Shown here: one piece after another, positions 53,840 to 54,194 of the stretch
Layout: the number at the start of each line of letters is the position of its first letter
How positions within the stretch are numbered: the first letter of the stretch is position 1
From: Jannaschia sp. Os4
GTDB lineage: Bacteria > Pseudomonadota > Alphaproteobacteria > Rhodobacterales > Rhodobacteraceae
Length of the DNA: 64,000 bases
Assembly: GCF_016820245.1 (NCBI RefSeq)
Contig: NZ_JAFCAR010000004.1
Span: 620,001 to 684,000 of the forward strand
Direction: 5' to 3'
Made by a program: the position numbers and the translations under genes
Notes under the pieces: generated by a model
What the model saw: only the letters and a program-made list of their open reading frames with translations
Databases searched by the model: none
What the model was told of the DNA's origin: nothing

Positions 53840-53879
53840 GCGCACGCCGCGACGCAGCGTCGTTTCTGCAATTGCACAG

Positions 53880-53907
53880 TTGACCATGCTGCCGCGCAGC
53901 ATAATCT
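53880..53907 (+). promoter_or_regulatory. Promoter with a palindrome filling the spacer (TTGACC-N16-TAATCT)
   Basis: A -35 TTGACC (53880-53885) and a -10 TAATCT (53902-53907). The spacer is occupied by ATGCTG-CCGCG-CAGCAT (53886-53902), which contains CTGC-CGC-GCAG. That core has the form CTGC-N3-GCAG reported for the polyhydroxybutyrate regulator PhaR in Paracoccus. The promoter drives the small-RNA candidate that follows. Confidence 0.5.
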
Positions 53908-53913
53908 GGAACG

Positions 53914-54000
53914 CATCGGAGCGGCGCTTCTCCTCCCTTTTGCGCCGATCCGGAGAACGTCGCGGCCCCGCCCTCTCCTCCTCCCTGGGCGGGGCCGCAG
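53914..54000 (+). ncRNA. CTCCTCCC-motif small RNA (cuckoo/CcsR-like) candidate
   Basis: Two hairpins each expose CTCCTCCC in the loop. Hairpin 1 has stem CGGCGC/GCGCCG (53922-53947) with loop motif at 53930-53937. Hairpin 2 has a perfect 12-bp stem (53962-53973 with 53987-53998) with loop motif at 53978-53985. This is the layout of the CcsR/cuckoo RNAs of Rhodobacter, stress-induced RNAs whose loops mimic an anti-Shine-Dalgarno sequence. A promoter ends 7 bases upstream. The length would be about 87 nt. There is no T-run after hairpin 2, and no DUF1127 gene is adjacent, unlike the R. sphaeroides CcsR locus. The exact ends are inferred. Confidence 0.65.
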
Positions 54001-54095
54001 TTCCGCCCCAATTCCGTCCTCGATTTTGCAACAATCCGCGCGATCCTGACGTTCGGGTCCCGACTCTAGGGACTCGACAGCAAAGGATCCGACGG

Positions 54096-54194
54096 ATGAC
54101 CCGCCCCCAGCCCGTCCCGCGCTCCCCCGCCGACCCCGCCCCGCGCAAGCCGCGGCCCAAGCCGGTGCGCTTCACCGACTGGGCGTCGATCTGA
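54096..54194 (+). CDS. Possible 32-residue small protein
   Basis: ATG 54096 is preceded by AAAGGATCC, with AAGGA about 8 bases upstream. The frame encodes a very basic, Pro-rich peptide ending KPVRFTDWASI. Such short ORFs with an FTDWASI-like end seem familiar from Rhodobacterales, but I cannot confirm this. It may have its own promoter around TTTTGCAACAATCC (54024-54037), or be read through from the small RNA upstream. Confidence 0.4.
   Translation: MTRPQPVPRSPADPAPRKPRPKPVRFTDWASI

Follow-up and report, generated by a model that had tools for sequence, protein, structure and literature searches.

The anti-Shine-Dalgarno (anti-SD) loop motif of bacterial small RNAs has been defined previously (PMC3927594 and PMC10746234, cited from excerpts). 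CcsR1–4, the cuckoo RNAs of the CIN1 locus of Rhodobacter sphaeroides (RF02791), consist, like the RNA described here, of two hairpins with CCUCCUCCC-type loops, and their array is co-transcribed with ccaF1, has an RpoHI/RpoHII promoter and is processed by RNase E (PMC10253847, excerpt). ar14/NfeR1 (RF02344), from Sinorhizobium and other rhizobia, is likewise a solitary anti-SD RNA with its own sigma-70 promoter and the identical loop motif, but it has three hairpins with CCUCCUCCC loops, is under LsrB/NtrC control and silences ntrB by pairing at the start region (PMC10746234, excerpt). A third RNA, MmgR (alpha-r8) of Sinorhizobium meliloti, is a PhaR-repressed sRNA tied to PHB accumulation (PMC12542648, excerpt), and its family carries a 10-mer of the anti-SD kind (PMC12559287, excerpt). 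According to excerpts of the same PhaR study, PhaR of R. sphaeroides has CTGCNNNGCAG as its site; in S. meliloti, a pair of palindromes flanks the −35 element of both phaP1 and phaP2, and PhaR binds and represses the promoter of MmgR (PMC12542648).

A sequence-only reading had described two stem-loops whose loops contain CTCCTCCC, with a perfectly paired 12-bp stem in the second, and we confirmed both features at positions 53916 to 53998 on the (+) strand of the window (i.e., the whole 64-kb stretch of DNA that was analyzed). The host, Jannaschia sp. Os4, is a marine bacterium. Specifically, hairpin 1 (53916–53953, (+) strand; a folding prediction) has the loop TTCTCCTCCCTTTT (53928–53941), which contains CTCCTCCC and falls short of the full CCTCCTCCC, and hairpin 2 (53962–53998, (+) strand), with the 12-bp stem, has the loop TCTCCTCCTCCCT (53974–53986), which contains CCTCCTCCC. 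The predicted small RNA spans 53914 to 54003 on the (+) strand, with the start placed from the −10 element and an uncertain 3′ end; a terminator scan of the (+) strand found no T-rich terminator 3′ of hairpin 2. A covariance model built from 12 locus sequences matched the window at 53907–54009 (85.4 bits). The minimum free energy (MFE) of a 106-nt stretch was −56 kcal/mol (z = −4.35), which none of 200 shuffled sequences equaled, and the loop bases were predicted to be unpaired (mean, 0.88 to 1.0 across 16 loci), so that the locus shows the paired hairpins with an anti-SD motif in unpaired loops that characterize cuckoo RNAs in the broad sense. The octamer CTCCTCCC by itself is not enriched in the GC-rich 64-kb window (5 found versus 5.06 expected); what exceeds chance is its conservation, not its count.

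Both hairpins proved to be kept in relatives, as expected of a conserved structured RNA. Using blastn, we obtained matches in 13 of 40 genomes, comprising the own genome, 11 other Jannaschia genomes with the same locus and G009, where the match sits elsewhere and not at the solitary-RNA locus. The covariance model yielded a solitary match (59 to 107 bits) in 17 of 20 Jannaschia genomes, five of which lie outside the 12-sequence training set, and no solitary RNA in the other three (G008, G012 and G017). A scan with the promoter pattern returned eight matching stretches, all from Jannaschia. In an alignment of the 17 solitary sequences that had been fitted to the structure, 20 of 26 base pairs change on both sides yet stay paired, a number reached in 0 of 500 shuffles (shuffled mean, 10.7), whereas versions slid by 1 to 3 columns give 5 to 12. 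RNAalifold, applied to a structure-free alignment, recovered hairpin 2 (both sides changed in 6 of its 12 pairs) and missed hairpin 1, which folds individually in each of 12 sequences, is short in J. aquimarina and has a stem whose sequence varies with compensatory changes.

Matches beyond these loci were of a different kind. Among the weaker covariance-model matches listed (n = 21), the 13 examined as loci all adjoin a CcaF1/DUF1127 match, i.e., they are CcsR arrays. At least 226 of 388 family genomes match the model at E 1e-6 under strict filters. All 28 loci inspected from other genera contain four or more CTCCTCC motifs, and 25 of them have a CcaF1 match, while L142 and L155 carry a different DUF1127-like protein instead. 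With 80 further stretches, three of which repeat earlier places, 105 distinct family loci were classed (among L138–L265). A combined search for a PhaR box and two TCCTCC motifs matched 15 places in 14 of 394 family genomes; two of these are the solitary RNA. Of the remaining 13, four were examined: a CcaF1 match adjoins the arrays L106 and L111, the hairpins of L107 form an array-like series, and L116 looks different. No solitary relative was thus seen outside Jannaschia among the loci examined. Judged from its sequence, the locus is a predicted solitary small-RNA gene of Jannaschia that is cuckoo/ar14-like and anti-Shine-Dalgarno in form.

The original assignment to the CcsR/cuckoo type thus holds in the sense of a solitary, two-hairpin cuckoo RNA but not for CcsR1 as Rfam defines it: a covariance search with the CcsR1 model (RF02791) scored 25.4 bits in the window and at most 30.1 bits over the 17 solitary loci, far under the gathering cut-off of 65.3 bits. 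The CcsR1 cut-off is narrow, because the array of the own genome (20.8 bits) misses it too. The best Rfam scores of the solitary loci came from ar14 (RF02344; 33.7 bits in the window and up to 49.0 bits among the 17 loci, with a cut-off of 58.8 bits), a cut-off that the array of the own genome likewise fails to reach, and no Rfam family matched the solitary RNA above threshold. The separation from MmgR, which we treat as another RNA family, is based on this same result. The solitary RNA further differs from CcsR/CIN1 in its promoter and in its neighbors, as no CcaF1/DUF1127 match was found near it in the window, in 11 loci of 19.5 kb or in five loci of 3.1 kb.

The block immediately 5′ of the RNA, TTTCTGCAnnTGCAnnnTTGACCnnnCTGCnGnGCAGCTTA, is about as conserved as the RNA itself in the alignment of 12 loci. 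It comprises dyad 1 (CTGC-N4-GCA, 53866–53876), directly 5′ of a −35 element (TTGACC, 53880–53885, (+) strand; TTGAC[CT] in 12 of 12 aligned loci), followed by dyad 2 (CTGCCGCGCAG, 53889–53899) in the 16-bp spacer and a −10 element (TAATCT, 53902–53907, (+) strand), the aligned position of which is kept as TTA/TAA. Dyad 2, the predicted PhaR site, is identical to CTGCNNNGCAG in 10 of 17 loci, and the other seven deviate from it by a single mismatch (in L090 it reads GTGCATTGCAG). The N4 form of dyad 1 recurs before a PHB depolymerase gene, and dyad 1 is weaker in some RNA loci. Although a strict consensus scan called no promoter here, the conserved TTGACC-16-TAATCT arrangement supports the earlier proposal that the RNA has its own promoter, which looks to be of the sigma-70 type with PhaR-like operators. 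The proposal of separate control likewise gains support, in that this promoter is unlike that of the CcsR arrays. Nothing in its sequence indicates a singlet-oxygen or heat promoter.

Genes of PHB metabolism share this operator layout. In the pha locus of the own genome, CTGCNNNGCAG occurs before phaP and before phaR (2 sites in 10 kb versus 0.35 expected). A phaR gene is present in 20 of 20 Jannaschia genomes, including the three that lack the solitary RNA, and a phaP promoter with two dyads flanking the −35 element was found in 17 of 20; L121, L129 and L130 yielded no such pair and were left out of the phaP set. The gene called phaP is putative, as it is named by its genomic place and had no match in Pfam or NCBIfam. 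We derived a matrix from the 34 phaP dyads alone, leaving RNA promoters out of the training. Run over each 3-kb locus, it gave its highest score within the promoter region of the RNA in 16 of 17 cases; in L087 and L089 this top score is at dyad 1, and in L090 the promoter ranks fifth. Among the 63,982 positions of the window, dyad 2 has the second-highest score, surpassed only by a site inside an 817-aa ORF. Across the 20 Jannaschia genomes, the double-dyad pattern occurs at 27 distinct places, nine of which precede the solitary RNA, eight a PHB depolymerase gene (Esterase_PHB, NF050058) and one phaP, while the other nine precede none of the tested genes.

It is the placement of the double dyads, not their number, that constitutes the evidence. 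Their total is no higher than in a reversed control (30 rows versus 35 for the genus; 2 matches versus 13 and 11 in controls for the own genome), and the one CTGCNNNGCAG present in the 64-kb window is not above chance, with 1.73 expected. The phaP matrix is also not specific to PhaR, because the boxes of CcsR arrays score 12 or more with it in 94 of 108 loci (91 of 105 without repeats). These boxes do differ in the third base of N3, which is a pyrimidine in 17/17 solitary, 34/34 phaP and 8/8 depolymerase sites versus 12/91 array boxes, in a comparison where the array boxes were chosen by the phaP matrix itself and the L090 box is not its dyad 2. Taken together, dyads of the CTGCNNNGCAG type lie over the core promoter of the RNA and are conserved in relatives, with the same operator sequence and layout as the PhaR-repressed phasin and PHB-depolymerase promoters; those promoters drive proteins, whereas what is controlled here is predicted to be a non-coding RNA. 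In MmgR, by comparison, the PhaR site lies between the −10 element and the start region, not in two dyads flanking the −35 element. The best reading is a predicted PhaR control of a cuckoo/ar14-type anti-SD RNA, and it is this control that is new. Among the papers listed in a literature search that included few subscription papers, none connected PhaR to CcsR/cuckoo RNAs or VtlR to CcsR.

Combining structure, conservation, promoter dyads and an operator layout common to PHB genes, we consider it probable that the locus encodes a solitary, trans-acting anti-SD sRNA of ~90 nt that is repressed by PhaR, made upon PHB accumulation and lowers the translation of its targets. In the absence of PHB, PhaR would occupy both dyads flanking the −35 element and block RNA polymerase. 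PHB granules would then titrate PhaR off the sigma-70-type promoter, and the RNA would be made, appearing alongside phasin and PHB depolymerase. The CUCCUCCC loops of its two stem-loops would pair with Shine-Dalgarno sequences in trans, the mode of action shown for NfeR1 (PMC10746234), and several target mRNAs, most plausibly those of uptake systems and/or phasin, would lose translation.

As the solitary ar14 RNAs of rhizobia are activated by LsrB, the possibility that a LysR-type regulator such as VtlR or LsrB controls the RNA needed testing here. In this alternative, the anti-SD sRNA stands and its dyads are bound by such a regulator. In rhizobia, Agrobacterium and Brucella, regulators of this kind control NfeR1, AbcR and DUF1127 genes, with LsrB activating NfeR1 via TGCA-N6-GCAT (PMC10746234, excerpt) and VtlR controlling AbcR and DUF1127 genes (PMC7486931, PMC12595884); the published VtlR site is CAATGCAGCCATGCA (quoted in PMC12595884). 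The site types are alike enough to be confused: array boxes resemble PhaR-type boxes, and phaP promoters fall within three mismatches of the VtlR 15-mer in 10 of 17 cases. L090 even has an exact LsrB-type TGCA-N6-GCAT just 5′ of the −35 element, and the best VtlR-like match in the window has four mismatches. However, the 15-mer occurs within three mismatches in none of 17 solitary promoters, versus 97 of 105 family arrays and 12 of 12 Jannaschia arrays (1.3 to 1.7% of shuffled regions), and TGCA-N6-GCAT is confined to L090 among the 17 solitary loci, with a GCAC variant in one more; the window promoter has neither. In addition, when dyad 2 is scored with both matrices, the phaP-type one comes out ahead of the array-type one in 15 of 17 loci (reversed by ~1 bit in L016 and L086), and dyad 2 lies inside the spacer, the position of a repressor. 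We therefore regard binding of these dyads by a VtlR/LsrB-kind regulator as unlikely.

In the CcsR arrays, the corresponding sequence is the promoter box TGCAT[AG]GC[AG]GCATTG (also given as TGCATRGCRGCATTG; reverse complement, CAATGCTGC[CT]ATGCA), mostly ~330 to 370 nt 5′ of the first hairpin in the 105 family loci, in the Jannaschia arrays (L091–L103) and in the own array. It is often trailed ~30 nt on by TTGTGCAnnYGCAGCAT. The box suggests VtlR/LsrB-type control of the DUF1127-sRNA operons, and general PhaR control of CcsR arrays was rejected on the basis of the N3 bases, the published VtlR site and the mismatch counts. The own array, an ordinary DUF1127-CcsR array in which five CTCCTCC motifs and additional variants come after the gene for a 73-aa DUF1127 protein (PF06568), lies ~100 kb upstream of the solitary RNA (L002/L044). 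The sequence-only reading was right that the locus here is solitary, but it is not the only cuckoo locus of the genome.

Synteny in relatives is partly kept. A small proline-rich ORF of 32 aa (54096–54194, (+) strand; ending in ...KPRPKPVRFTDWASI) and, farther 3′, a gene with a TfoX_C domain (PF04994; 54233–54565, (+) strand; by tblastn) each accompany the RNA in 16 of 17 loci (the window among them), and RND efflux is encoded upstream in 15 of 17, within the length of sequence available for each locus. The sitABCD operon, named earlier as the setting of the RNA, is not borne out as such: it adjoins the RNA in 6 of 12 long loci (the window and 5 of the 11 others of 19.5 kb), and neither sitA nor sitD was matched in the other five loci, of 3.1 kb. 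The RNA is retained in loci that lack any one of these neighbors, be it RND efflux, the small ORF, TfoX_C or sitABCD. Because sitABCD varies among loci, it is an incidental neighbor, and a link to metals was rejected. No TfoX_C gene was found in G008, G009, G012 or G017, in a search run without a positive control. The small ORF differs mainly at third codon positions (43/93/275 differences by position); its product has 29 to 35 aa, a C-terminus of [RK]F[TSI]DWA[SA]I and no Pfam match, and relatives at E 1e-3 or better occur in 7 of 120 family genomes, the own included (e.g., L167–L172). Between hairpin 2 and the small ORF, a partly conserved stretch (e.g., in L017, L018, L020 and L086) contains GTTTCC and, ~10 nt on, TA[CT]A[AG]T. 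It may be a second promoter for the ORF and is not evident in the window.

This gene order raises the alternative that the hairpins form the 5′ leader of a transcript with the small ORF and TfoX_C and act in cis on translation or stability. Such a leader would agree with the order of the two genes and with the missing clear terminator after hairpin 2, but pairing of a loop with the Shine-Dalgarno sequence was predicted above P 0.3 in only 1 of 16 loci, and the RNA persists where either gene is absent, namely without the small ORF in L089 and without TfoX_C in L090. Furthermore, small-ORF homologues of other genera have no adjoining hairpin pair, with no pair of CTCCTCC motifs within 100 nt in the five loci examined. 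A cis-acting leader is thus quite unlikely, and we treat the small ORF as a conserved neighbor of the RNA. A merely detached CcsR/cuckoo RNA that has kept the RpoHI/RpoHII stress expression of the Rhodobacter array would have the same loops, the two-hairpin form and the weak CcsR1 similarity, but it is highly improbable given the score below the CcsR1 cut-off, the lack of a CcaF1/DUF1127 match at the loci searched and a solitary promoter that differs in kind from the array promoter.

Under the PhaR-repressed, trans-acting reading, Jannaschia may possess two anti-SD RNA systems of the same loop design, with the DUF1127-CcsR array under VtlR/LsrB-type control and the solitary RNA freed from PhaR by PHB, a scenario to which we give about an even chance. 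As identical loops should give anti-SD RNAs the same targets, the difference between the two must lie in the timing of their synthesis, and a solitary copy on a PHB sensor beside an array on another regulator in one cell would make this idea testable. If the reading is true, the solitary RNA would slow translation in response to storage, as the counterpart of the PhaR-repressed MmgR of rhizobia, and the predicted wiring would tie carbon storage to the control of protein synthesis. MmgR would then be joined by a second PhaR-controlled sRNA, which would suggest that a tie between storage and riboregulation recurs in Alphaproteobacteria. The analysis also brought to light a probable VtlR box in the CcsR arrays of Rhodobacteraceae.

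Two further observations concern the family loci. A UvrD/AddA-like helicase gene adjoins the arrays as a recurrent Rhodobacteraceae synteny, with a tblastn match in 63 of 108 loci (e.g., L141, L142 and L155). In genome G123, model matches fall on three separate contigs, namely L191 (C11), L222 (C5) and L255 (C4); neither L191 nor L222 shows a DUF1127 match. In L222, a strong PhaR-type box (20.8 bits, N3 CTT) lies 89 nt before the first hairpin, making this locus a possible further PhaR-linked cuckoo locus outside Jannaschia.
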